Virus record (IMG/VR): IMGVR_UViG_3300025383_000011 | Coordinates: 62,001-126,000 of that record | Length of the DNA: 64,000 nt | Source of the DNA: a virus | Strand: one strand, 5' to 3' | Shown here: positions 3,550 through 35,788 of the stretch, piece after piece | Layout: every line of letters begins with the position of its first letter | How positions within the stretch are numbered: the stretch's first letter is position 1 | The notes under the pieces: generated by a model | Database searches by the model: none | Seen by the model: only the letters and a program-made list of their open reading frames with translations | Told to the model about the DNA's origin: nothing | Made by a program: the position numbers and the translations under genes

Positions 3550-6500
3550 ACGGTGTTTTACCCCCGGCTGCAGTAACACTTGGACTGTTTTTCAAGAAAG
3601 CAACCTGCGCTGTTGTACTGTTGTACAAGCCTGTGCCATCTGTTGCTGTGCCGTATGGGCCTGGGCTGTACCAAATTTGTGATTTTGAAACTGTTGAACC
3701 GGCTGGTACTGTGATTTTTCCATCTACGGTTACATTGCCCAAGATATAAGAACTCACAATGTAGCTGTCAGCTTCAACTCTGTTGATTTGCAGTTTGCTG
3801 GTTGAATTGCTAAATGAATCTTCGTCAAATCCGTCTGCAGTGTCAAAAAACTCAGGACGTCCTTGAGTGCCAATAATTGATCCGCTAGTAATAATGGCAC
3901 CAAAAGAACGCTGATTTGATACTGTTTCAAGTGCTCTTAGTGTAACACTCACCGCAGTATTACCTTCAAATGCATAGGTTACGTTGCCAGCTGCCAGTAC
4001 ATTTGCAAACTTGGATGTAGCTATGTTTGCCGACGATATTGGTGTGATATTTGATGTTGGGAATGTGGCAGAATACACATTACCTGTGGTAATATAAGTG
4101 TTGCCACCGCTGTCAAAAATATATGTGTGCAAAGGAAACGCTGTGTTGGCTGTCCAAGTTTTAGTGCCAGGGCCATAGACATTTCCGGTAACAGTATAAC
4201 TGTTTCCGTTGTAGTAGGTTAGAACTCCAGGTTTTATTGTGGTACCAGGTTGCCATAAATCCACAGTGGTCAAACTGGTGATGATATCACCAACATTGAC
4301 GCTTATGTTTGCTGTAGTTGTAATTCCATATGCAACCACATCAGTTGCTTGGTAAGTTGTTGCCTGACTCAATGTTGTTGAGGTAACTGCGGTATTGGGA
4401 ATCTGTTGTGTTGCACTAGAATCTACCACTCGACTGCCGGCTGGATGTATGTTAGCTGTTGCGGTTCCGTCAACTCCGCGTCTAATTTGTGCCAAGGTAT
4501 TGATACTGACTTGTTCAATTTGTGTTGGTGCTACATTTGCAAAATCTATGGCATAAACGTTACCAGTGGCCACATAAACATTGCCAACGTAACTGATCAA
4601 ACTTCCAGCAGGTACTGTAATGTTTGGTTGCCAAGGAATAGGAGTTTCCAATGCATAGTTTCTCCAGTAAGCAATTTTTTCTCCGTTGATGAAAACAATG
4701 CCCGGTGTGCTGGATATCTGATTGGGGGCCGGCAAACGTGTAGCATCAACTACACTGATAGTTGTGTCGGTCATTGCTAAATCTTGGGCTAATGCTGTGG
4801 TTGATGCCGCGGCAATTCGATAATAAGATCTCTCGCTTTGCATATTATCAAAATATCTCCAAGCAATATTGTCAGTTTGATAAACACTCAAATTAAAACT
4901 GTCAAACATACGACCCGGTATTAATTCTTCGGGTGCGTGACTGACATAGCTGTTTACATAGCTGCCACCATCCACATACACATTGGCCATATCAATGCCC
5001 AGGTTGTCGGAATATTGACTTTGTATAATAGTATCTACTGTGGTACCCAGGTATGTGTTGCCTTCAATGATCACCCCAGGATAATTTATTCCGTCGCTGA
5101 TCAAACTCAAATCAACATTGCCGTTGTAGGCCACAATGCGATCATTGGCATTGTCAAAGTCTGCGGCAGAAATTTTGACAATTTGGGAAGGAAAGTTGAC
5201 TGTGTTTGTTACAGTATTTCCAGTGATCACGTAGTTGTTGCTCAATCTAAATAGATGTGTATCCAACACTATGACTGAGTTGGCTGCAATAGTTTGTCCC
5301 AAACTTGCACTAACATTGCTTGATATATTGCTCCAAAACACAAAAGTGTTTGGGTTGGTATATGTGGTACGGTCAAATTTGATATTGGTTTTGATGCTTC
5401 TGACCACGTTGTGTCCCGAATTGTTTCCGGTATATTCGTTTCTCAGTATTGGGTTAACTATTGCACCCGCGCCTGTGCCGTTGACAACTATGGTCGGAGT
5501 CGATGTATAACCAGATCCAGGGCTGATCACACGAATTTGATTGATCTGGCCGTATGAGTTAATGGATGCAGACAAATTGGCTCCGGTACCACCACCACCG
5601 GTAACAATAAGTTGCGGAGGCAAGGTGTAACCCGATCCAGGGTTCTCTATGCTTACATCAACAATTTTGTAGGTGTAGTTGTTGGACCAATTTTGGTAGG
5701 TACTACTAGATAGCAAGGCAACGTCAGTACTTTGTGTTCCGTCTGGTGCTCTGTAAGTTTTTAAATTGGCGTCCCAGTATGCCGGCAGGTCAAAGTCTGT
5801 TATGTCTCCGGCATACGGATCATTGCGTTTGTAATTGATAACAAATTCGCGCAGTATGGTTCTGTATGGTTTAACTTCGTTGATGTACTCTAGATAATAA
5901 TCTTGGTTGTCTTTGATGTAGGCCGGGAAAGTTTCTAATTTTCTAATATCTTGTGTGGCCGATACAAAGCTGGTTTTAAATACCCAATCTAGATTTTTCT
6001 GTTCACTAAGCACATACTTGACCATTGAGAAGAAAATTTGATTGTAAGTCAACGCCAAGTCTTCAATGAAAATTTCTTTTTGCATTGCAGAAATAATTTG
6101 TCTCAATTCTTTGCTTGGAATAGCGCCAGTGGTGATTTGTAAGGTGCCGTTTTGTATTCCCACCAATGTTTTGGTAAGGTCGCTGTTGATCTGATAAACT
6201 AAAAATTGTCCGTTACCACCATCCAACACTTTGACAAACTGACCAGCTGTCAGTGACAATTTGCCCAGCTCAATGTCATTTTTAACAGTATAGTTGGGAG
6301 TGGTAGTTGGATTGTAAGCAGAATCATACCAATCAGCATAGGTCCAATACAAATCGGTTTTGTAAGTTTGTACTGTTGATACCGTAAATATGCCCACCGT
6401 GCCATTACAGCCCGACAGAGTGTATACTGCCCATTTGCCCAAATTGGTGCTGTCTGATTTTACCAATACACGACTTTGACCCACAGTTAATGCCGTTGTA

Positions 6501-23709: not shown

Positions 23710-23733
23710 GTGCTAACTTTAAAGGAACTAGAG

Positions 23734-24618
23734 GTGCGCCATAACTATCTTAACAACAAAGACATTCTAAAAGAAATTCACAAAAGCAAAAATACCTATT
23801 GCTACTATACTGCTCCTGCCTACGCAGACTACGATATGATTTTGCCAGCAGTATCAAAAATAAACAAAAAGAACATCTTGCAAGCACGTAAAGATCGTGC
23901 TGTGCGTTTGCAAAAGCTGGCGCACGAAGCAGCTACAGCCGACGGCACCAAGCGCAAGATGGACGAATTTGAAATCAAGCTCAAGGACGTGCCTGACACC
24001 GATGTGGTATTCCGTGTCATGACATGGGATCATATTCCAGTGGACGATGTCAAAAGCCGCAAAGCCGCTATCAAAGCCTACGAAGAAGAAGAGGGTGCTG
24101 TTACTCATTCCGAGTACGACGATGACACCTTGGACATTGCCGGCAATACCAAATATGTCAAAGTTAATTTTCCGCCGTTTGAACACTACACAGTTACCGA
24201 AGAGGGCGAACCTGTATTGGTGGGACGTAGTCACTGGCAAGGTGATTTTGTCAAGGGCAACTTCAGCAAAGATCACGGCAAAATGACTCCAAAATTGGCT
24301 CATATGTTTATCAAGCTGTGCGAACGCTATGCCACTCGTAGCAACTGGCGTGGTTACACCTACAACGACGAAATGCGTAGTCAAGCATTGTTACAGTTAT
24401 CACAAATTGGACTACAGTTTGATGAATCTAAAAGTCAAAATCCATTTGCCTATTACACAGCGGCCATTACCAACAGTTTTACACGTGTTCTAAATATTGA
24501 AAAACGTAATCAAAACTTACGTGATGACATTTTAGAAATGAACAACTTAACACCAAGCTACACACGTCAAGGTATGAAAATCAGTACCGGCAGCAGTGAT
24601 GGTGGCTACGACGATTGA
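23734..24618 (+). CDS. gp55: Late-transcription sigma factor gp55
   Basis: 294 aa from GTG 23734, chosen because AAAGGAA sits 6 nt upstream; an in-frame GTG at 23710 lies almost on the -10 box. The C-terminal third has the gp55/sigma region 2 pattern: LAHMFIKLCERYATRSNWRG, NDEMRSQALLQLSQIGLQFD, then NPFAYYTAAITNSFTRVLNI. gp55 binds host core RNA polymerase and recognises TATAAATA-type boxes, which occur throughout this window in front of structural genes. At 294 aa it is longer than T4 gp55 (185 aa); the acidic N-terminal half (about residues 60-170) has no assigned function. It is the first gene of the rightward early/middle block. Confidence 0.9.
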   Translation: MRHNYLNNKDILKEIHKSKNTYCYYTAPAYADYDMILPAVSKINKKNILQARKDRAVRLQKLAHEAATADGTKRKMDEFEIKLKDVPDTDVVFRVMTWDHIPVDDVKSRKAAIKAYEEEEGAVTHSEYDDDTLDIAGNTKYVKVNFPPFEHYTVTEEGEPVLVGRSHWQGDFVKGNFSKDHGKMTPKLAHMFIKLCERYATRSNWRGYTYNDEMRSQALLQLSQIGLQFDESKSQNPFAYYTAAITNSFTRVLNIEKRNQNLRDDILEMNNLTPSYTRQGMKISTGSSDGGYDD

Positions 24619-24666: not shown

Positions 24667-25686
24667 ATGACAAACCTTTTTAAGAAGGCCGCAGTCTTCA
24701 CAGACATACATTTCGGCTTAAAATCCAATAGTACCTTGCACAACGAAGACTGTTTGGCCTTTGTCAAATGGGCCACAGCCAAAGCCAAAGAGGAAGGATG
24801 TGAAACCTGCATCTTTACCGGTGACTGGCACAACAATCGTGCGTCAATCAATATTTTAACTCTGGGCTACAGTCTCAGAGCTTTGGAACATTTGAATGAC
24901 AATTTTGACTCTGTGTATTTTATTCCCGGCAACCACGATTTATACTATAGAGACAAGCGAGATGTGCAAAGCGTGGAGTGGGCCAAACACCTACCCAACA
25001 TCAAGATTGTGAATGATTGGTTTACTCAAGGTGATGTTACTATTGCTCCGTGGCTCATTGGTGATGACCACAAGCGTTTAAAAAAATTAACTGGTAAATA
25101 TATGTTTGGGCACTTTGAATTACCAGGTTATTTGATGAATGCCATGGTTGCCATGCCCGATCACGGTGATGTAGATCCCAAAAACGACCTCAAAGGTTTT
25201 GAACACGTTTATTCAGGTCATTTCCACAAGCGTCAAACCAAAGGCAATATTACCTATCTGGGCAACTGTTTTCCACACAACTATGCCGATGCCGGTGATG
25301 ATGACCGCGGCCTAATGATTCTAGAATGGGACAAGCCACCAGTTTATCACGCCTGGCCTGATCAACCTATGTATCGTGTGTTCCAGTTGAGTGATGTGCT
25401 CAAGCACACCGAAGTTATGCTTAGGCCCAATATGCACGTAAGGGTAAATTTAGATATCGATATCAGCTACGAAGAAGCCACATTTATCAAAGAAACTTTT
25501 ATTGACACTTACAACCTGCGTGAAATTACCTTGATACCGGCCAAAACCACAGATCTAAGCGAATACGAAATACAAGGCAACATAGCATTTGAATCGGTGG
25601 ATCAGATTGTGTTCGGACAACTGAATTCCATTGAAAGCGAGCAGTACAACAAAAATTTACTGTTGGACATTTACAGAAATCTCTGA
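24667..25686 (+). CDS. gp47: Recombination endonuclease subunit gp47 (Mre11-like)
   Basis: 339 aa, the size of T4 gp47. Calcineurin-type phosphoesterase motifs are all present in order: DIHFG (residues 13-17), GDWHNNR, GNHDLYY, and GHFHKRQ. They ligate two metal ions for the Mre11-type nuclease. gp47 pairs with the Rad50-like gp46 to resect DNA ends for recombination-dependent replication. Here gp46 is not adjacent: three other genes (two radical SAM and one ANL-like) lie between. No ribosome site precedes ATG 24667 and the promoter -10 box ends 8 nt before it, suggesting a leaderless mRNA. Confidence 0.95.
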   Translation: MTNLFKKAAVFTDIHFGLKSNSTLHNEDCLAFVKWATAKAKEEGCETCIFTGDWHNNRASINILTLGYSLRALEHLNDNFDSVYFIPGNHDLYYRDKRDVQSVEWAKHLPNIKIVNDWFTQGDVTIAPWLIGDDHKRLKKLTGKYMFGHFELPGYLMNAMVAMPDHGDVDPKNDLKGFEHVYSGHFHKRQTKGNITYLGNCFPHNYADAGDDDRGLMILEWDKPPVYHAWPDQPMYRVFQLSDVLKHTEVMLRPNMHVRVNLDIDISYEEATFIKETFIDTYNLREITLIPAKTTDLSEYEIQGNIAFESVDQIVFGQLNSIESEQYNKNLLLDIYRNL

Positions 25687-25689
25687 GTA

Positions 25690-26679
25690 ATGTATGCATT
25701 TGAGGATATCCGCAGACTAGAAATTGAGCCTACAAATCAGTGTCAGGCTCGTTGTCCTCAATGCTTACGCACCCCACCCGATGGTACAGTTAATAAATTC
25801 TTACGTGACGAACTATCACTAGATGTAATTCGCAATCAAATTCCCGTCGGCTTCTGGGCGCAATTAACCAATATTAATTTTCAAGGCAGTACCGGCGACT
25901 GTATGGCACACAGAGACATTGTGAATATTGTGCGCTATATGAAACTGCATAGTCCGGCCCAAATAACAGTACACACCAATGGCGGACTTGGTTCCGCCGA
26001 TACCTGGGCAGATTTAGCTAGAGTATTAGACCCCCACAACAAGGTTGTATTTGGCATTGATGGTTTAGCTGATACTAGTCCTTTATATCGCATAGGTGTT
26101 GACTTTGATCTTGCTATACGAAATGCCCAAACATTTATTTCTGCGGGTGGACAGGCTGAATGGCAATATATTGTGTTCCAACACAATCAACATCAAATTG
26201 AACAGGCAAAGCAATTGAGTCGCGACTTAGGATTTCAAAAATTTTGGCTACGTAGCTCAGGTCGCTTTGAAGGCAAAGGTTATCAAGATGTTTATGATAA
26301 AGGTACGGTAACACACAGACTAGAGCCTGCCACAATCAAAGTCAATTCCTACGTAGAAGGCGAATACAAACAGAATATTCAGACCACAGCAATTGACTGT
26401 GAAGCTATCGATACCAAATGGATTGGTATATATGCTGATGGTACTGTGTGGCCTTGCTGTCATTTAATGGGATGGCATCGTATTCCCAATTATGGTCTGA
26501 GTAATTTAATAAACAAAAAGAAAATCATTGAAGTAGTCGGCGATTACAGCCAAATTGATTTGCACACGCATACCTTAGACACTATTATTCGCAGTGACGT
26601 ATTTCAAAAGAACTATGAGAAAAGTTTTACAAGCAGTCAACCAATACCAGTGTGTGTAAGCACCTGCAGACGACGATGA
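25690..26679 (+). CDS. Radical SAM protein with SPASM-like C-terminus (copy A1)
   Basis: 329 aa. The radical SAM cluster motif is C18-x3-C22-x2-C25 (NQCQARCPQCLRTP), which binds the 4Fe-4S cluster that cleaves S-adenosylmethionine. The core TIM-barrel continues with NFQGSTGD and TVHTNGG. The C-terminal part has IYADGTVWPCCHLMG and a closing PVCVSTC, the Cys arrangement of a SPASM/twitch auxiliary-cluster domain. Its substrate is unknown. It starts 3 nt after gp47 and its stop overlaps the next gene (ATGA), so the three are one operon. The protein is a paralogue of the one at 31022-32026 (same motif layout, similar size, matching EIVRY/NIVRYMK and LGF segments). QueE-type function is unlikely, since QueE has a longer first Cys spacing. 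Confidence 0.85.
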   Translation: MYAFEDIRRLEIEPTNQCQARCPQCLRTPPDGTVNKFLRDELSLDVIRNQIPVGFWAQLTNINFQGSTGDCMAHRDIVNIVRYMKLHSPAQITVHTNGGLGSADTWADLARVLDPHNKVVFGIDGLADTSPLYRIGVDFDLAIRNAQTFISAGGQAEWQYIVFQHNQHQIEQAKQLSRDLGFQKFWLRSSGRFEGKGYQDVYDKGTVTHRLEPATIKVNSYVEGEYKQNIQTTAIDCEAIDTKWIGIYADGTVWPCCHLMGWHRIPNYGLSNLINKKKIIEVVGDYSQIDLHTHTLDTIIRSDVFQKNYEKSFTSSQPIPVCVSTCRRR

Positions 26680-28115
26680 ACACGCAAGAACTACGAGCCA
26701 ACTTGGAAAAAGACTATAAGTTATTGGTATTTGCTGACTTTGCAGAAGTTAGCCACTCACCAACGGCTGCTTACAAGTTATTAGAAAGTGTACGCAAGGA
26801 TGAGTTTGCCGACCGCGAGCGTATTGTATTCTATGGTAATTACCCAGACCCGGAGTTGGTTAATCACGTGGCCAGGGCCAGAGAACTGTTGGACATTGGC
26901 GAGTTCTTTTGTATTTGGCAAAATGATATTTCTGATGCCGGCATACCAGGAACAGGATACCAGGTCAACAGTGACACGTTTTGTCCATTGCTGTGGGGTC
27001 ATTTAGAAGTTAGACACAACGGCGATGTATATCCTTGCTGTGTAAGCAAAGAGTTTATTGGTAACGGCAACGATAATACCTTAACAGAGTTATATCACAG
27101 TGATCAAATGAATCGTATACGTACAGAACTATTGTCTGGTGTGCAATCCAAGGGCTGTGAAAAATGTTGGCGTCACGAAGCTGAAGGCTTACAATCAAAT
27201 CGCCAATGGCACATAGGCAAGAACAGCCGTGATTTTTACAGTACCTGGCACGATGACCTAAAAGTACGCAGCTTGGACTTGAAGCCCGGTAATGTATGCA
27301 ATTTTAAATGCCGTGTTTGTAACCCAACTAGTAGTAGTTTGGTGGCCGAGGAAGTGAGACAAAGTCAACGACAACGTGGTATTAGTATTCCGGTGGTGGG
27401 CGATCGTTGGGCTGGCTACAATGAGTTTATGTGGGGCGAGCTAGATCGACTCATACCCGACGTAGAAAATTTAGATTTCTACGGCGGTGAACCGTTTTTG
27501 TTAAAAGAGTTAAAGACATTTTTACATTCGGCTGTGGCCAATGGTCACGCTGATCATATACGTTTGCACTTCAACACCAATGGTAGCGTATATCCCGAGG
27601 ACTTGATTGATACTCTGCGACAATTTCGCGAAGTTGATGTTTGTTTGAGTATTGACAATGTGGGCATTCAATTTGAATTAGAGCGCGGTGGCACGTGGAC
27701 AGCAGTTGAACAAAATATTTTACGATTCAAAGAGTTAACTGCCGATCCTGTGTTCAAAGTAAGCATATTCCCCACTGTCAACATACAAAACATTTATTAC
27801 CTGGATCGTTTGTATGAGTGGGCCGACCAACACAACATAATGGTCACTTTAAACTACTTGGATGATCCCGATTACCTGAGCATAGACTCAATGACTTCTG
27901 CGGCACGTGACTTGGTTGTTGATAAATATCAAACTAGTTCAAACGAATCTTTGCGTAATCTAGCTCAAAGAATCAAATCAAGCGCCGGCAGCAACGGACA
28001 AAAATTTATAAAAACTGTGGCGTACTATGACCGTATACGCTCACAAGACTTTACCAAGACTCACACAGAAATAGCTCAAGCGATGGGCTACACAGGACTC
28101 AACAATGATAACTAG
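26676..28115 (+). CDS. Twitch-domain radical SAM protein (copy B1)
   Basis: 479 aa from ATG 26676 (ATGA overlap with A1). A GTG at 26652 in the same frame lies inside A1 and was not used. It has an unusual domain order, with the auxiliary-cluster (twitch) domain before the radical SAM barrel: C103 in FCPLLWGHLEVRHNGDVYPC, C121-C122, and C161-x2-C164. The radical SAM motif follows at C208-x3-C212-x2-C215 (VCNFKCRVC), then FYGGEP, the SAM-binding GGE motif, and FNTNG. Residues 1-100 form an extra N-terminal region without clear homology. The order is known from environmental phage proteins of unknown substrate. It is the paralogue of the protein at 32016-33320 and is always placed directly after the A-type partner. 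Confidence 0.85.
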   Translation: MNTQELRANLEKDYKLLVFADFAEVSHSPTAAYKLLESVRKDEFADRERIVFYGNYPDPELVNHVARARELLDIGEFFCIWQNDISDAGIPGTGYQVNSDTFCPLLWGHLEVRHNGDVYPCCVSKEFIGNGNDNTLTELYHSDQMNRIRTELLSGVQSKGCEKCWRHEAEGLQSNRQWHIGKNSRDFYSTWHDDLKVRSLDLKPGNVCNFKCRVCNPTSSSLVAEEVRQSQRQRGISIPVVGDRWAGYNEFMWGELDRLIPDVENLDFYGGEPFLLKELKTFLHSAVANGHADHIRLHFNTNGSVYPEDLIDTLRQFREVDVCLSIDNVGIQFELERGGTWTAVEQNILRFKELTADPVFKVSIFPTVNIQNIYYLDRLYEWADQHNIMVTLNYLDDPDYLSIDSMTSAARDLVVDKYQTSSNESLRNLAQRIKSSAGSNGQKFIKTVAYYDRIRSQDFTKTHTEIAQAMGYTGLNNDN

Positions 28116-29238
28116 ACATTCAATCAATTCCGCAATGGTATTTCAATACCACGACAAAATGGCACACATTAAAACCTACAGTTACGACGACCTGTGTGAT
28201 CGCATTGATCGTTGGAAAATGTTTTACATTGAACAATACTGTGTACAACCAGGTCAAACCATATTGATTGATTTTAGCGTAATGACCATTGACTATTTTG
28301 CCAGCGTGTTTGCTGCTGCCGAATTGGGGTTGGTCTTGATCAATGGAGTGCCTGCAACCTGGCGCATACGAAATAGCAAGGAGAACAACCCTATTCCCAC
28401 CGGATTAGAGCCAATTGATTACATACTGGATTTTGGTACCAAGTCGGACTGGGATCACCAACTGTATACAGCATTGAGCAAAGATGTTGTGGTCAATGCA
28501 TATTGGCAAGACTATCAGGTCAAAGATACTGCACAATTGGCCTCAGTAAAAAATGACATACGTTGCACTGACGAATTGGTGCTGACAAAAGACTTGGTCA
28601 CCGGTGCCGCTGCCACACACAAAAAAATCACAGCCGTGAGTCAACGCATGGCCACAATACTGGGGTACAGCAACACCGACAGTATTTTGCACACTAGAAA
28701 TTTACACTTGCTGGACTATAATTTCTGTTGGAATTTTTTGCCGGGATTTATGCTGTGTCGTGAACATTTTGTATTCAACGATGTTGACGTGCCTGGCGGT
28801 AACGATTACTTGAGTATGTTGAGCGAATTTATCACAGACAATCGAATAAATTTTATTCCTATTGATCACGTGGTACCGGGTTCGTTAACAGGTTTACTCA
28901 AAAATATCAGTGCTGTTGATTTTGATCTGACTGTCAATACCACTGCTGCCATCAATAGAGAAGCGGTAAAACTGATGCGTGAAAAAAATATTCGTGCTAT
29001 TAATCGACTGTTTTGTACCAATCCACGCAATGCCGGTATGTTGATAAAAACTGTTGACAAGGACACACCCGATAGTCGATTACAAATGAATAATTTTGGC
29101 GCACCGCGCGATAACTTTTTTCAATTTAAATTAGACAATCACGTGTTGTACTACTCGTGCCCAGACTTGGGGGAGGATTGGCAAACCGACGGCAATCAAT
29201 TTATTTTCAGCAACAGCGAGTATCATTTTGCTGGATAA
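28105..29238 (+). CDS. ANL-superfamily adenylation-like protein, short and degenerate
   Basis: 377 aa. The N-terminal part matches the start of acyl/aryl-CoA synthetases and AMP-ligases: TYSYDDLCDRIDRW, then QTILIDFSVMTIDYFASVFA and AELGLVLINGV. The place of the ATP-binding loop reads LVTGAAATHKKI, not TSGTTGKPK. Near the end NNFGAPRDNFFQFK and CPDLGEDWQTDGNQFIF resemble the G-x-P and TGD motifs. The mobile C-terminal domain with the catalytic Lys (about 110 aa) appears to be absent, since ANL enzymes usually exceed 500 aa. It may adenylate or merely bind a carboxylate. It overlaps B1 by 11 nt and has AGGA in the B1 3' end, so it belongs to the same operon. Family membership is inferred from pattern only. 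Confidence 0.6.
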   Translation: MITRHSINSAMVFQYHDKMAHIKTYSYDDLCDRIDRWKMFYIEQYCVQPGQTILIDFSVMTIDYFASVFAAAELGLVLINGVPATWRIRNSKENNPIPTGLEPIDYILDFGTKSDWDHQLYTALSKDVVVNAYWQDYQVKDTAQLASVKNDIRCTDELVLTKDLVTGAAATHKKITAVSQRMATILGYSNTDSILHTRNLHLLDYNFCWNFLPGFMLCREHFVFNDVDVPGGNDYLSMLSEFITDNRINFIPIDHVVPGSLTGLLKNISAVDFDLTVNTTAAINREAVKLMREKNIRAINRLFCTNPRNAGMLIKTVDKDTPDSRLQMNNFGAPRDNFFQFKLDNHVLYYSCPDLGEDWQTDGNQFIFSNSEYHFAG

Positions 29239-29256
29239 CAATCTGTTCAATTTGAT

Positions 29257-29284
29257 TTACATACACCATTTATCAATCTATAAT
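29257..29284 (+). promoter_or_regulatory. Sigma70-like promoter of gp46
   Basis: TTACAT, 16-nt spacer, TATAAT (perfect -10). The -10 box ends 8 nt before the gp46 ATG at 29293, with no ribosome site between. Confidence 0.6.
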
Positions 29285-29292
29285 GTAGACTA

Positions 29293-31062
29293 ATGTTTAA
29301 AATAAAAACTCTAACGGTTCGAAACTTCATGAGTGTGGGCAATACCACACAAGCAGTTGATTTTGATCGACAAGATCTCACTTTGGTCTTGGGCGAAAAT
29401 TTAGATTTGGGCGGTGATGATTCGGGTGCTCGTAACGGCACAGGCAAAACCACCATTATCAATGCACTCAGTTATGCCTTGTACGGCAATGCTCTTACCA
29501 ACATCAAAAAAGACAACTTGATCAACAAAACCAATAGTAAAGGAATGATGGTCACTATTGATTTTGAAAAAGACGGCGAAGCATATCGCATCGAGCGCGG
29601 ACGTAAGCCTGGTGTTATGAAATTCTGGGTAGGTGATCAAGAAAAAGAAATTACCGATGATGCGCAGGGTGATAGTAGAGAAACACAGGCCGAAATAGAA
29701 CGTATGTTGGGCATGAGTCACGAAATGTTCAAACACATTGTGGCGCTCAACACCTACACCGAACCATTCCTTAGTTTAAAAGCCAATGACCAGCGCACCA
29801 TCATTGAACAATTATTGGGCATTACACTATTGAGTGAAAAAGCCGACAATCTCAAAGAAGCAAACAAAGCAACCAAGGATGCTATCACACAAGAGGAATT
29901 CCGTATCAAAGCCGTGGGCGATGCCAACAAGCGTATTGAAGAACAAATTGAAGCATTGAAGCGCAGACAGACTTTGTGGAATAACAAACACGATGAAGAG
30001 ATCGATAAGATTCAAACGGCGATCGAAGAACTACAGAGGATCGACATTCAGGCCGAAATTCAGGCACACCAAGCGTTTAAGACGTGGGATCAAACTAGAA
30101 AGGATCTCAATGAACTATCGACGGCGATTGGTCGGACAAAGCTGGACCTGGCCCGCGAGGAAAAAACCATTGCCAAGGTATCTGCAGAACTTGTTTCGCT
30201 GGAAAATCACACGTGTCATACCTGTGGTCAAGAGTTCCACGACGAAAAGCACCAACAGGTGTTGGGATCGAAGCAGAGAGATTTGGCGACAGCAGAGGAA
30301 AATCAGAGAACCTATGCTGCCACTTTGGACGAACTACAGCAGGCTCACACCGGGCTGGGCACTCTGGGTCCACGGCCTGTGACATTTTACGACACCGAAA
30401 GCGAAGCTATACAACATCAGGCCACTGTGGACAATTTGATCAAACAGTTGACTGCCAAGGCAGCTGAAAATGATCCGTATACCGAACAAATTGCAGAAAT
30501 GCAAGCAACTGCTGTGGAAGAAATCAATTTTGATACCATCAACGAGTTGACCAATCTACGAGATCATCAAGAGTTCCTGCTTAAACTGTTGACCAACAAA
30601 GATTCATTTATTCGCAAACGTATTATTGATCAGAACCTAAGTTATTTAAATGCCCGCTTGGGACAATACTTGGACCGTATTGGCTTACCACACACAGTCA
30701 AGTTCAACAACGATTTGACTGTGAGTATTACAGAGTTGGGACGAGACCTAGACTTTGACAACTTGAGTCGCGGTGAACGCAATCGTTTGATCTTGAGCTT
30801 GAGTTGGGCGTTCCGTGACGTTTGGGAAAGTCTATATCAACCTATTAACCTACTGTTCATTGATGAGTTAGTGGATTCGGGTATGGATAGTTCGGGTGTT
30901 GAAAATGCGCTGGCCGTCTTAAAAAAGATGAGTCGCGAAGCACACAAGAGTATATGGCTAGTAAGCCACAAAGACGAATTGTCTGGACGTGTAAACAATA
31001 CGTTACACGTGGTCAAAGAAAATGGATACACAAGTTACAACACCGACATTGACATTGCTTGA
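29293..31062 (+). CDS. gp46: Recombination endonuclease ATPase subunit gp46 (Rad50-like)
   Basis: 589 aa, near the T4 size (560). Walker A is GARNGTGKTT (residues 45-54), with a short insertion (LDLGGDDSG) just before it. Two coiled-coil arms flank a zinc hook C308-H-T-C311. The ABC signature is LSRGERNRLILSLSWAF and Walker B INLLFIDELVDSGMDSSG, followed by the H-loop VSHK. It forms the gp46/47 complex that processes DNA ends. Its last 41 nt overlap the next radical SAM gene. The start MFKIKTLTVRNFMSVGN is the conserved family N-terminus. Confidence 0.96.
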   Translation: MFKIKTLTVRNFMSVGNTTQAVDFDRQDLTLVLGENLDLGGDDSGARNGTGKTTIINALSYALYGNALTNIKKDNLINKTNSKGMMVTIDFEKDGEAYRIERGRKPGVMKFWVGDQEKEITDDAQGDSRETQAEIERMLGMSHEMFKHIVALNTYTEPFLSLKANDQRTIIEQLLGITLLSEKADNLKEANKATKDAITQEEFRIKAVGDANKRIEEQIEALKRRQTLWNNKHDEEIDKIQTAIEELQRIDIQAEIQAHQAFKTWDQTRKDLNELSTAIGRTKLDLAREEKTIAKVSAELVSLENHTCHTCGQEFHDEKHQQVLGSKQRDLATAEENQRTYAATLDELQQAHTGLGTLGPRPVTFYDTESEAIQHQATVDNLIKQLTAKAAENDPYTEQIAEMQATAVEEINFDTINELTNLRDHQEFLLKLLTNKDSFIRKRIIDQNLSYLNARLGQYLDRIGLPHTVKFNNDLTVSITELGRDLDFDNLSRGERNRLILSLSWAFRDVWESLYQPINLLFIDELVDSGMDSSGVENALAVLKKMSREAHKSIWLVSHKDELSGRVNNTLHVVKENGYTSYNTDIDIA

Positions 31063-32026
31063 TCATCATCGTATACATATCGAAGTCAGTAGCAAATGTA
31101 CTTTGAAATGTCCACGCTGTCCTCGCACGGAGTTACGGCCCGAAGCACTCAACAGAGAAATTAGCCTGCTTGAGTTTCAACGTGCTTTTACTGCGGACCT
31201 GTTGAGTGAAATAGATGAAATAACATTCTGTGGTGACATTGGCGATCCCATCTATGCCAAAGACTTTTTAGAAATTGTTAGATATATTAAAACTAGTCGG
31301 TTTGATACTCGTTTGGTCATTGTTACCAACGGTAGTTATAAAGATACCAGCTGGTGGATTGAACTAGGCGAACTGTTAAACAATGATGATACTGTAACAT
31401 TCAGTGTTGACGGGTGGGATCAAGAATCAAACGAGCAATATAGAGTTAACAGCAACTTCGAAAGTATCATACGTGGTGCTAAAGCCTTACGTGCCAATAG
31501 TAATTGTATTATGAATTGGTCGGCTATCTACTTTAACTTTAATGAAAAAGAAATGGGCCATATACAAAATCTAGCACAAGAGCTAGGATTTGATACGTTT
31601 GACGCTGTACACAGTACTAAATTTGATGGTGCGTACTTAATTAATGGCACTGATCCACTTAAGCCAAGTCCAATGTATATCGCTGCATCAGGTAAGTATC
31701 GTGTTTCTAGATTGCCCATTAGTGATCGTGGCGGTAATCGCACACTACTGCGCCGACATCCTACTCGGGCTGCACACCCGTGGGCTCGCTGTATTAACGG
31801 TGACAAAGAAATGTTTATCAATGTAGACGGACTGGTATTTCCTTGCCCTTGGTTCAACTCGGGCTATATGTACAACGACTTTGTAGAAAAATATAGAGAT
31901 CAAATCAACATCAAGACTCGTACTCTTAAAGAAATACTACAGGACCCGCTGTGGGAAGAGCTGTATACCAGATTTGAAGTAGCACCATTAGATATTTGCA
32001 AACACAAGTGTAGAGATGCCCAATAA
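31022..32026 (+). CDS. Radical SAM protein with SPASM-like C-terminus (copy A2)
   Basis: 334 aa from ATG 31022, which overlaps gp46 by 41 nt. A TTG at 31052 would shorten the overlap, and the conserved part (RIHIEVSSKC) begins only at residue 17, so the start is not certain. The cluster motif is C26-x3-C30-x2-C33 (KCTLKCPRCPRTE). It then has FCGDIGDP, IVTNG and a C-terminal FINVDGLVFPCPWF with ICKHKC near the end, a SPASM-type Cys set. It aligns along its length with A1 at 25690-26679. It is followed by a B-type partner with an 11-nt overlap, repeating the A-B order of the first pair. Substrate unknown. Confidence 0.83.
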   Translation: MDTQVTTPTLTLLDHHRIHIEVSSKCTLKCPRCPRTELRPEALNREISLLEFQRAFTADLLSEIDEITFCGDIGDPIYAKDFLEIVRYIKTSRFDTRLVIVTNGSYKDTSWWIELGELLNNDDTVTFSVDGWDQESNEQYRVNSNFESIIRGAKALRANSNCIMNWSAIYFNFNEKEMGHIQNLAQELGFDTFDAVHSTKFDGAYLINGTDPLKPSPMYIAASGKYRVSRLPISDRGGNRTLLRRHPTRAAHPWARCINGDKEMFINVDGLVFPCPWFNSGYMYNDFVEKYRDQINIKTRTLKEILQDPLWEELYTRFEVAPLDICKHKCRDAQ

Positions 32027-33320
32027 AAATATATTCTGTAACATACCTTGGTATGAGATCCATATCAATCACGACGGCAGTTATGACCTCTGTGGTTGTA
32101 TGACTGAATTGATTACCGAAACAGATCAAGCCAAGGTTTGGAACATACGCAACTATAGTGTGGACGAATACTGGAACAGCCGCCGACTGCGAGATGAACG
32201 CTTGCAAAAAATGTCAGACACACCTAATCCAGCCTGTGCTATCTGCCAACACCAAGACTCAATTGGCAGTCACAGCAAGCGTATCAAGGAAAACCTAAAG
32301 AGTGTGCTGTTTAACGATCTCAACTTCAACAAGAGTTTCGATCAAAGTCCGCACAGAACCATATTTGAACACAGCCTGCACAACGACGGTGAGACCACTA
32401 CACGGCCGGTCAGTTATCATTTGAGTTTGGGCAACGAATGTGACCTAGCCTGCATTATGTGTAGTCCATACAGCAGTTTTAAACTGGCACAAGACTACCG
32501 AGCCTTGGGTTGGATACAGGATGCTCGTAGATTAAATTGGACCGATGATCCTGCGATTTGGGATCAGATGTGTGCAACATTGTTGGCCACAGACTTGGTT
32601 AATCTGCACATTATCGGCGGTGAACCCACCATTAACAAGCGTTTTCATCAACTGATTGACACCTTGGTTGCTGCAGGGCACACCAACTACAGTTTTAGCT
32701 TTACCACCAATGGTATGCACGATTTAACAGAGTTATGGCCCAAGTTGGCGCAATTTAAACGTGCCGAAGTCAGTTTCAGTATCGAAACCATGAGTAAAAC
32801 CAACGACTACATTCGTTATGGCAGTACGTTTGAAACCTTGATCGACAACATTGCACAGGCACGCAGAGATGCGCCCACAAACGTGGATTTTGTTATACGT
32901 ACTGTGCCTACATTTTTGACTATCACAGAATATGTGGATGTCATTGAATGGTGTGCGGCACAAGGGCTAGTAGTTGACAGTTATTTTGCCACAGATCCAG
33001 TCTGGCAACAGATCAAAATCTTGCCCAAATCGATCAAACAAATGTTGCAAAAAGATTTTGAGCAGTTGCTGACAAAACTGAATCGACTAAAACAGGACAG
33101 GCCAGCTGGCATGACCAATTGGCGTAATCCAGCTTATGCACTAGAAAACTGTATCAAAGAAACAGAAAGCAGTATTGCTAGCTTGCAACACACAGAAGAT
33201 TATGTGGACCTGAGACGCGAAGCGGCACGTAGATTGCGCGAATTAGACACCCGACGTGGCACTGACGTGACTGCTCAATTTCCCATACTAAAAGATTTTT
33301 TAATAGAATATGGCTACTAA
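32016..33320 (+). CDS. Twitch-domain radical SAM protein (copy B2)
   Basis: 434 aa. The N-terminal twitch-type Cys set is C8 (IFCNIPWYEIHINHDGSYDL), C26/C28 and C74-x2-C77. The radical SAM motif is C142-x3-C146-x2-C149 (ECDLACIMC), then IIGGEP and FTTNG. A helical, charged C-terminal extension (residues about 340-434, with ESSIASLQHTEDYVDLRREA) is absent from B1. The SSF/SSL-type segment after the third Cys and the GGEP spacing match B1 closely, so the two are paralogues. It overlaps A2 and the following gene by 11 nt each, which indicates a tightly coupled operon. Confidence 0.84.
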   Translation: MPNKNIFCNIPWYEIHINHDGSYDLCGCMTELITETDQAKVWNIRNYSVDEYWNSRRLRDERLQKMSDTPNPACAICQHQDSIGSHSKRIKENLKSVLFNDLNFNKSFDQSPHRTIFEHSLHNDGETTTRPVSYHLSLGNECDLACIMCSPYSSFKLAQDYRALGWIQDARRLNWTDDPAIWDQMCATLLATDLVNLHIIGGEPTINKRFHQLIDTLVAAGHTNYSFSFTTNGMHDLTELWPKLAQFKRAEVSFSIETMSKTNDYIRYGSTFETLIDNIAQARRDAPTNVDFVIRTVPTFLTITEYVDVIEWCAAQGLVVDSYFATDPVWQQIKILPKSIKQMLQKDFEQLLTKLNRLKQDRPAGMTNWRNPAYALENCIKETESSIASLQHTEDYVDLRREAARRLRELDTRRGTDVTAQFPILKDFLIEYGY

Positions 33321-33753
33321 TTTAAAGTTTAGCATAACTGTAGATCCTGTGGGCTATGCGGACCGCTGGCCAGAGTTTTATATCAAAATTGATGACCACC
33401 TTCAGGATCGGGGTGTGTTGCGAGACACAGCCACTTACAACTTTGACGTCTCGCTCCAAGACGGTAACCACACTATTGCAGTTGGGTTTACCAACAAGCT
33501 GGATGATGATACTCGGGTTGAGAACAATCAAATTGTGGCCGACAAAGCAGTCGTAGTCAAAACTGTCAACATTGAAGGGTACGAGTTGGCTGATTTCATC
33601 TATCGTGGACGTTATTTCCTTATAGGTAGAGAAACAATGTCCAGCAATTACCTCAGTTGGAATGGTGAATGGCGTTTGGATATTACCACTCCAATTTTTA
33701 CTTGGATACACGAAACACAGCAGTTGGGCTGGATTTACGGGAAAAAATTATGA
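33310..33753 (+). CDS. Small beta-sandwich protein at end of radical SAM cluster
   Basis: 147 aa, predominantly beta-strand. The pattern W-P-E-FYIKIDD, then YNFDVSLQDGNHTIAVGFTN, DDTRVENNQIVADKAVVVK and VNIEG resembles calcium-dependent carbohydrate-binding modules (CBM36/60 type), where Asp/Asn-rich turns bind calcium. The similarity is by eye and the function is inferred. It overlaps the B2 stop by 11 nt, so it is co-translated with the radical SAM genes. It could bind their substrate or be a virion surface protein that they modify. No signal peptide or membrane segment is seen. Confidence 0.5.
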   Translation: MATNLKFSITVDPVGYADRWPEFYIKIDDHLQDRGVLRDTATYNFDVSLQDGNHTIAVGFTNKLDDDTRVENNQIVADKAVVVKTVNIEGYELADFIYRGRYFLIGRETMSSNYLSWNGEWRLDITTPIFTWIHETQQLGWIYGKKL

Positions 33754-33783: not shown

Positions 33784-34212
33784 ATGACCTGGCTTTTCGA
33801 GAACTCCCTTGTAGAAACTCTACCCGAAGACTGTGTTGGTTTTGTTTATTTGATTACAAATAAGCTGACCGGCAGGATGTATGTTGGAAAAAAATTGGCC
33901 AAGTTTAGCAAGACCACTTACCGAATGGTCAAACTAAAAAATGGCAAAAAGAAACGTAAAAAAATCAAGGGAAAAATAGATTCAGACTGGCAAACATATT
34001 ATGGCTCGAATACGGAATTAAACAAGGATGTGGCTGAACTGGGCGAAGAAAATTTTACAAGAGAAATACTGTATTATTGTCGAAGCAAAGCTGAATGCAG
34101 CTACATCGAAGCAAGGGAACAATTTTCACGCAAAGTGTTAGAAACAACAAATTATTATAACGGACACATACAGGTTCGTGTACACGGCTCACACATTATC
34201 AACAAGATATAA
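33784..34212 (+). CDS. GIY-YIG nuclease (free-standing homing-endonuclease type)
   Basis: 142 aa. The N-terminal GIY-YIG domain reads GFVYLITNKLTGRMYVGKK (residues 19-37). A very basic loop NGKKKRKKIKGK (53-64) follows, then DSDWQTYYGSN, and a helix with YIEAREQFSRKVL that supplies the conserved Glu. Similar small GIY-YIG proteins with a SDW...YGS segment occur as free-standing genes in many T4-type phages. The DNA-binding domain, if any, is minimal. The gene stands alone between the radical SAM operon and a structured noncoding stretch, with no visible ribosome site. It does not interrupt a recognisable gene. Confidence 0.85.
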   Translation: MTWLFENSLVETLPEDCVGFVYLITNKLTGRMYVGKKLAKFSKTTYRMVKLKNGKKKRKKIKGKIDSDWQTYYGSNTELNKDVAELGEENFTREILYYCRSKAECSYIEAREQFSRKVLETTNYYNGHIQVRVHGSHIINKI

Positions 34213-35780: not shown

Positions 35781-35788
35781 TATTTATA
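35781..35788 (-). promoter_or_regulatory. Late promoter box TATAAATA (leftward, gp26)
   Basis: TATAAATA, a perfect match to the T4 late consensus. Predicted +1 near 35775, 27 nt before the gp26 ATG at 35748. Confidence 0.7.

Follow-up and report, generated by a model that had tools for sequence, protein, structure and literature searches.

Two exchangeable radical SAM cassettes in the recombination operon of a probable T4-related jumbo phage, with a possible role in glycan tailoring

The four radical SAM (rSAM) genes that surround gp46 in this phage DNA make up two exchangeable cassettes, as judged from gene order and homology among relatives. The first, between gp47 and gp46, combines an rSAM gene, an N_Twi rSAM gene and an ANL-like gene; the second, between gp46 and a SegE-like gene, combines an rSAM gene, an N_Twi rSAM gene and a CBM60-like gene. 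We tentatively propose, with slightly less than even confidence, that these cassettes serve the radical tailoring of a phage-made glycan. The DNA analysed (the window, 64,000 nt) comprises bases 62001–126000 of a virus record of 133,207 bases. Its gp46 protein was closest to those of the jumbo phages PA5oct of Pseudomonas (50 % identity), Phosso of Sinorhizobium (48 %) and Atu_ph07 of Agrobacterium (45 %), so that the record, which is from a T4-related phage, is probably a jumbo phage fragment; the largest related records are up to 354 kb long. The 133-kb record gave ten matches to PF04055 and relatives up to 17 in one record, so the finding is larger than an earlier sequence-only reading of the window had stated.

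All genes of the operon lie on the plus strand and are named here by their start positions. The left fixed flank is a gp55-like late sigma factor gene (23710–24618), at the same place as the 'sigma factor for late transcription' of Atu_ph07; it represents conserved cluster 3, present in 62 of the surveyed loci. The core consists of gp47 (24667–25686), encoding the SbcD-like recombination nuclease subunit (Metallophos PF00149, E 3.5e-6) and kept across the surveyed loci, and gp46 (29293–31062), encoding the SbcC-like recombination ATPase (AAA_23 and SMC_N matches). The right fixed flank is a SegE-like GIY-YIG endonuclease gene (33784–34212; PF19835, E 4e-32; conserved cluster 2, in 80 loci). 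The sequence-only reading had described four rSAM genes with intact CxxxCxxC motifs, placed on both sides of gp46 within one overlapping operon, and we agree: the ORFs at 25690–26679, 26676–28115, 31022–32026 and 32016–33320 are all intact, and the overlaps range from 4 to 41 nt (25690/26676, 4 nt; 26676/28105, 11 nt; gp46/31022, 41 nt; 31022/32016 and 32016/33310, 11 nt each), with a 54-nt gap upstream of gp46. An overlap of exactly 11 nt thus recurs at three cassette junctions, at the starts of 28105, 32016 and 33310. That reading had left two operon genes unnamed, the ANL/AMP-binding-like 28105 and the CBM60-like 33310. Scans of the window for sigma-70-like promoters and terminators returned 30 matches against 31.1 expected by chance, and no tRNA genes were detected in it. 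The exact sequence TATAAATA occurs once in the window, at 35788 on the minus strand.

The PF04055 scores of 26676, 31022 (40.0 bits) and 32016 were above the curated cut-off, whereas 25690 scored 24.9 bits (E 1.6e-6) against a cut-off of 29.5. The latter protein aligns with the 31022 family with its catalytic cysteines invariant. The CxxxCxxC motif is present in all four proteins and invariant across both family alignments. In alignment A1 (the 25690/31022 family), C26, C30, C33, C257, C275, C326 and C330 were invariant in 18/18 members; in alignment A2 (N_Twi), the rSAM cysteines and the twitch residues C8, C74 and C77 were invariant in 20/20 sequences. On this basis we assign all four proteins to the radical SAM superfamily, and the cysteine motifs on which the sequence-only reading was built prove to be conserved in homologues. 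Its description of additional cysteines of the SPASM/twitch type also holds, since invariant auxiliary cysteines are found in every case, and can be refined with respect to position: in 26676 and 32016 the twitch is N-terminal and precedes the rSAM core. These two proteins matched the NCBIfam model NF033640 (N_Twi_rSAM, cut-off 170) over their full length with 295.5 and 244.6 bits, respectively, while 31022 reached 34.8 bits and 25690 was absent from the matches; these last two proteins, with a C-terminal auxiliary domain, are not members of that family. With the SPASM profile PF13186, 31022 was above the cut-off (30.1 bits) and 25690 marginally below it (21.2 versus 21.5). A full SPASM domain has seven cysteines and a twitch domain fewer. 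As only four auxiliary cysteines are invariant in 25690 and 31022, the alignment suggests that their C-terminal auxiliary domain fits a twitch better than a full SPASM domain.

The gp47/gp46 slot begins with 25690 (rSAM1), which has the C-terminal twitch/SPASM-like domain and a dN/dS of 0.11 against the homologue from relative L016. It is followed by 26676 (rSAM2), an N_Twi_rSAM with an N-terminus about 95 residues longer; its start is the ATG, while the program-made ORF opens at a GTG at 26652. The third gene, 28105 (28105–29238), was identified via its homologues as an eroded member of the ANL (adenylate-forming, AMP-binding) enzymes. Pfam gave no match to 28105 itself; three homologues (L022, L087 and L101) matched PF00501 above the cut-off, and the family profile matched NRPS adenylation domains with E 1.3e-9. 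28105 is not a canonical ANL enzyme, as its A3 motif is degenerate (VTGAAA in place of SGTTG; alignment A3) and the C-terminal domain is missing, both of which are present in the L022 and L101 homologues. The degenerate gene is still constrained (dN/dS 0.15 against L099). Phage-borne genes for TctC/Bug-type periplasmic receptors were seen beside the ANL genes in the gp47/gp46 slot of L087 (8977–9927), L022 (7572–8513) and L101.

The gp46/SegE slot is opened by 31022 (rSAM3; dN/dS 0.06–0.09), an rSAM with a C-terminal twitch/SPASM domain, followed by 32016 (rSAM4), an N_Twi_rSAM of a subtype with a DLCGC twitch signature. All 18 compared loci that have the 33310 family showed this signature in their N_Twi protein, against none of 5 loci that lack the family. 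The third gene, 33310 (33310–33753), encodes a small, CBM60-like β-sandwich protein. Its match to the CBM60 profile PF16841 was below the cut-off (17.6 bits versus 28.2; E 0.0056). The AF2 model of 33310 had a pLDDT of 85.6, and the top two Foldseek matches were the Ca-dependent CBM structures 2xhh and 2xfd, the only strong matches and far ahead of the rest. The modelled fold thus resembles CBM36/CBM60, and the protein may work like a CBM60; we do not claim membership of that family. The family alignment contained few invariant residues. We found 74 loci with the 33310 family in IMG/VR; an rSAM gene was located within 4 kb in 72 of them, and gp46 was in view in 61. The family occurred in three contexts: the window type (rSAM, N_Twi, 33310); a longer rSAM (cluster 18, provisionally labelled B12-type because of its length and N-terminus), after which come the 33310 family, an rSAM/SPASM gene and an SDR gene; and together with PLP-like genes. 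In 18 window-type loci, the distance correlations among rSAM3, N_Twi and 33310 were 0.918–0.925, compared with 0.72–0.79 for each of them against gp46. We conclude from these sequence distances that the three genes are co-inherited as a cassette. When dN/dS was calculated by NG86 against relatives, and read where dS was measurable and identity exceeded 60 %, values were about 0.06–0.15 across the cassette genes, so purifying selection acts on them.

We surveyed 80 IMG/VR relatives fetched with gp46 as the sole query, so that rSAM content was not preselected. The order sigma55–gp47–gp46–SegE was constant, and three slots between these genes carried variable cargo. Among the 58 loci that were complete from gp47 to SegE, 40 had at least one rSAM gene in the gp47/gp46 slot or after gp46 (15 and 37 loci, respectively). 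After removal of near-identical gp46 copies, the count was 33/50 (13 and 31, respectively); a wider count of 46/64 complete loci includes the window and five loci from other queries. The co-occurrence in related phages that the sequence-only reading had implied is thus real. Empty slots were seen in L019, L032, L046, L050 and L093, and gp47 and gp46 are adjacent in PA5oct; the simplest reading is that the cassettes were inserted into an older module. Apart from rSAM genes, the slots carried genes for SGNH-like hydrolases, ANL enzymes, SDRs and a TctC receptor, and for sulfotransferase-like, PLP-enzyme-like and amidinotransferase-like proteins, the names of cargo with no Pfam match resting on sequence features. 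In L022, L024, L037 and L066 the gp46/SegE rSAM and N_Twi pair was kept, and the gp47/gp46 slot had different cargo or none. As in modules of the CP220 type, several rSAM genes lie in a module that is exchanged among related phages. The sequence-only reading had taken the four rSAM genes for a single multi-enzyme pathway; since the cassettes in the two slots occur independently, we reject one pathway for all four genes.

Searches of cultured phages by tblastn with 26676, 31022 and 28105 gave few or no matches, and a scan of genome contigs yielded only five MAG loci; at least one of them, L191, appears to be a binned contig of phage origin. Two chromosomal-looking Bdellovibrionota MAG contigs, L188 (8226–10765) and L190 (5142–7195), carry rSAM+N_Twi and rSAM+SDR pairs that resemble the phage cassettes.

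A second rSAM island lies at 38–57 kb of the record on the minus strand, where rSAM genes follow tail-type genes and three proteins scored far above the NF033640 cut-off. In 13 regions from relatives the same order was found: tail-type proteins, k3, two GT8/glycogenin-like proteins, k5 and k0, then five to seven tandem N_Twi genes with optional inserts, then k6. SGNH hydrolases and a NodU/CmcH-type carbamoyltransferase were often present as well. These regions had been chosen for their rSAM arrays, so that the presence of the array was selected and that of its neighbours was not; one region (G001) is almost identical in sequence to this record. The carbamoyltransferase profile PF02543 matched in 14/15 records. 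The glycosyltransferase matches were weak (glycogenin, E 0.02–0.7; GT2, E 0.0036), and we regard these proteins as probable glycosyltransferases. k0 has an invariant DGD motif, making it a DxD-bearing protein; family c11 had no profile support, the profiles of k0, c11 and k6 matched no convincing solved relative, and PHROGs assigned them no function.

We hypothesize that the cassette enzymes would apply radical (5′-deoxyadenosyl) chemistry to carbohydrate units within a glycan or glycoconjugate made by the phage. For the gp46/SegE slot we envisage that rSAM3 and then the N_Twi rSAM4 would process a substrate that the CBM60-like 33310 binds or presents. The glycosyltransferases, additional N_Twi rSAMs, SGNH hydrolases and the carbamoyltransferase would come from the second island. 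A candidate product is a decorated sugar on the virion tail proteins or on the surface of the infected cell. The main support comes from the CBM-like partner and the sugar-type neighbourhood. The record also contains genes for NAD-epimerases, a DegT aminotransferase and a PIG-L deacetylase, and the sulfotransferase-, amidinotransferase- and PLP-enzyme-like, SDR and SGNH-type cargo of other slots points in the same direction, as does the pairing of rSAM with sugar genes in other phages (CP220 and Mosig). The AF2 model of rSAM3 (pLDDT 85.7) had BlsE as its top Foldseek match (TM about 0.52), and DesII was also near. BlsE acts on a nucleoside sugar acid and DesII on a TDP-sugar. However, SuiB, viperin and anSME, like DesII, followed closely after BlsE, and the peptide-acting SuiB, SkfB and anSME score almost as high as BlsE, so that these model-based fold comparisons do not discriminate between sugar and peptide substrates. 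The weakness of the glycosyltransferase matches, the lack of a clear glycosyltransferase in the window operon and the location of the L188 and L190 homologues outside sugar/polysaccharide clusters also count against a glycan. Where the sequence-only reading had left the target as a peptide, virion protein, nucleotide or sugar, the evidence leans towards a sugar substrate without proving it; we infer the sugar, a single product shared by both islands and the location of that product.

It is possible, but in our estimate unlikely, that the rSAM/twitch enzymes instead act on a protein or peptide of the phage or of its host, in RiPP-like fashion or during virion maturation, with 33310 as substrate or carrier. 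Most rSAM enzymes with SPASM/twitch domains are peptide or protein modifiers; the N_Twi profile had SkfB and anSME as its best PDB matches, the rSAM3 model is near SuiB, and the 33310 family stays constant while the chemistries that it accompanies differ, as would be expected of a substrate protein. Yet the operon is packed too tightly to accommodate a short precursor ORF, 33310 is predicted to be a CBM-like β-sandwich with few invariant residues, and sugar-type genes dominate the second island.

We consider it rather improbable that the product of the cassettes is a small metabolite or cofactor, unrelated to any glycan, which aids the infected host or blocks its defence. The variety of cargo (ANL, TctC receptor, SDR and amidinotransferase-like) resembles small-molecule biosynthesis, a metabolic benefit has been proposed for the rSAM clusters of CP220 (Timms et al. 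2010, PMC2853527), and clusters of jumbo cyanophages are predicted to make secondary metabolites (PMC7824862). Against this stand the predicted carbohydrate-binding-like fold of the partner and the N_Twi array itself, which is kept in synteny with tail-type genes. Hypermodification of phage DNA bases is very unlikely: some pathways of thymidine hypermodification make use of radical SAM enzymes and the record has QueE-like, QueD-like and thymidylate synthase family genes, but the cassettes lack a base-modification marker, and DpdA was not found in seven records in which the controls responded. A HMUDK_hel search gave no match, but its control was silent as well and the result carries no weight. 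The QueE-like (4421–5281) and QueD-like (3659–4162) genes of the record (G000) lie outside the window and may represent a 7-deazaguanine pathway.

Returning to the tailoring of a glycan, a broader and doubtful extension is that this jumbo-phage lineage has a modular system in which N_Twi arrays and slot cassettes, some with a CBM-like sugar-presenting module, are swapped to diversify a virion or cell-surface glycan.

Phages with several rSAM genes are already known. The exchangeable modules of CP220 and CPt10, which include an amidinotransferase, encode 11 and 12 rSAM proteins, respectively (Timms et al. 2010, PMC2853527), and our own count for CP220 was 11 PF04055 matches. A marine T4-like genome likewise encodes 12. 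The remark in the sequence-only reading that environmental phages have single twitch rSAM proteins thus understates their number. The modules of CP220 resemble those of the window in being exchangeable and multi-rSAM, and adjoin amidinotransferase and nucleotide-sugar transferase genes; its gp080, gp083 and gp084 are about 26–31 % identical to the 31022 family over 175–260 aa. Unlike the present record, CP220 belongs to another phage group with another host, a CBM60-like partner was not noted, and the stretch compared contained no good N_Twi match and no rSAM gene between gp47 and gp46. The rSAM cluster of phage Mosig is paired with DegT and a carbamoyltransferase. Clusters of jumbo cyanophages share glycosyltransferases and carbamoyltransferases with the second island and are predicted to alter surface polysaccharides (PMC7824862), but rSAM is not mentioned in that paper under the spellings tried.

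Atu_ph07 and Phosso share with the record the sigma55–gp47–gp46 order as well as the gp46 similarity. Each has four PF04055 matches, most beside tail-type genes, and their rSAM clusters occupy a place matching the second island, adjoining a k10-like protein (E about 1e-80). The rSAM genes themselves are different, with a weak N_Twi model match or none, the intervening genes do not match k0, k4 or k5, and no rSAM is annotated in the gp47/gp46 slots. The NF033640 family, which includes 26676, 32016 and the three second-island proteins, is represented here by tandem arrays and by members in fixed pairing with an rSAM whose twitch is C-terminal. As far as the literature searched shows, new features are the fixed slots within the recombination operon, a CBM60-like partner inherited together with its cassette, the conserved N_Twi array next to tail genes, and the maximum of 17 PF04055 matches per record. 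Phages with ten or more rSAM enzymes have been reported since 2010, and we found no substrate for these enzymes in the literature searched. The present lineage adds fixed slots, defined cassettes of two or three genes that include a co-inherited partner, and a second island whose sugar-type neighbours are conserved. Together with cultured relatives of known host (Atu_ph07 and Phosso) that have rSAM clusters beside tail genes, this makes the substrate of an N_Twi_rSAM-type phage enzyme directly testable.

Directly 3′ of the SegE-like gene lies a Polynucleobacter-1 RNA (RF01718; 34263–34396, plus strand; Rfam 89.9 bits, cut-off 37), which we regard as a neighbour of the cassettes and not as an established component of the system. 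The same RNA was found in eight relatives (L014, L020, L022, L024, L026, L027, L034 and L052). As it directly follows SegE in the window and in these relatives, the RNA family appears to belong to this phage lineage and hints at a Polynucleobacter-like host.
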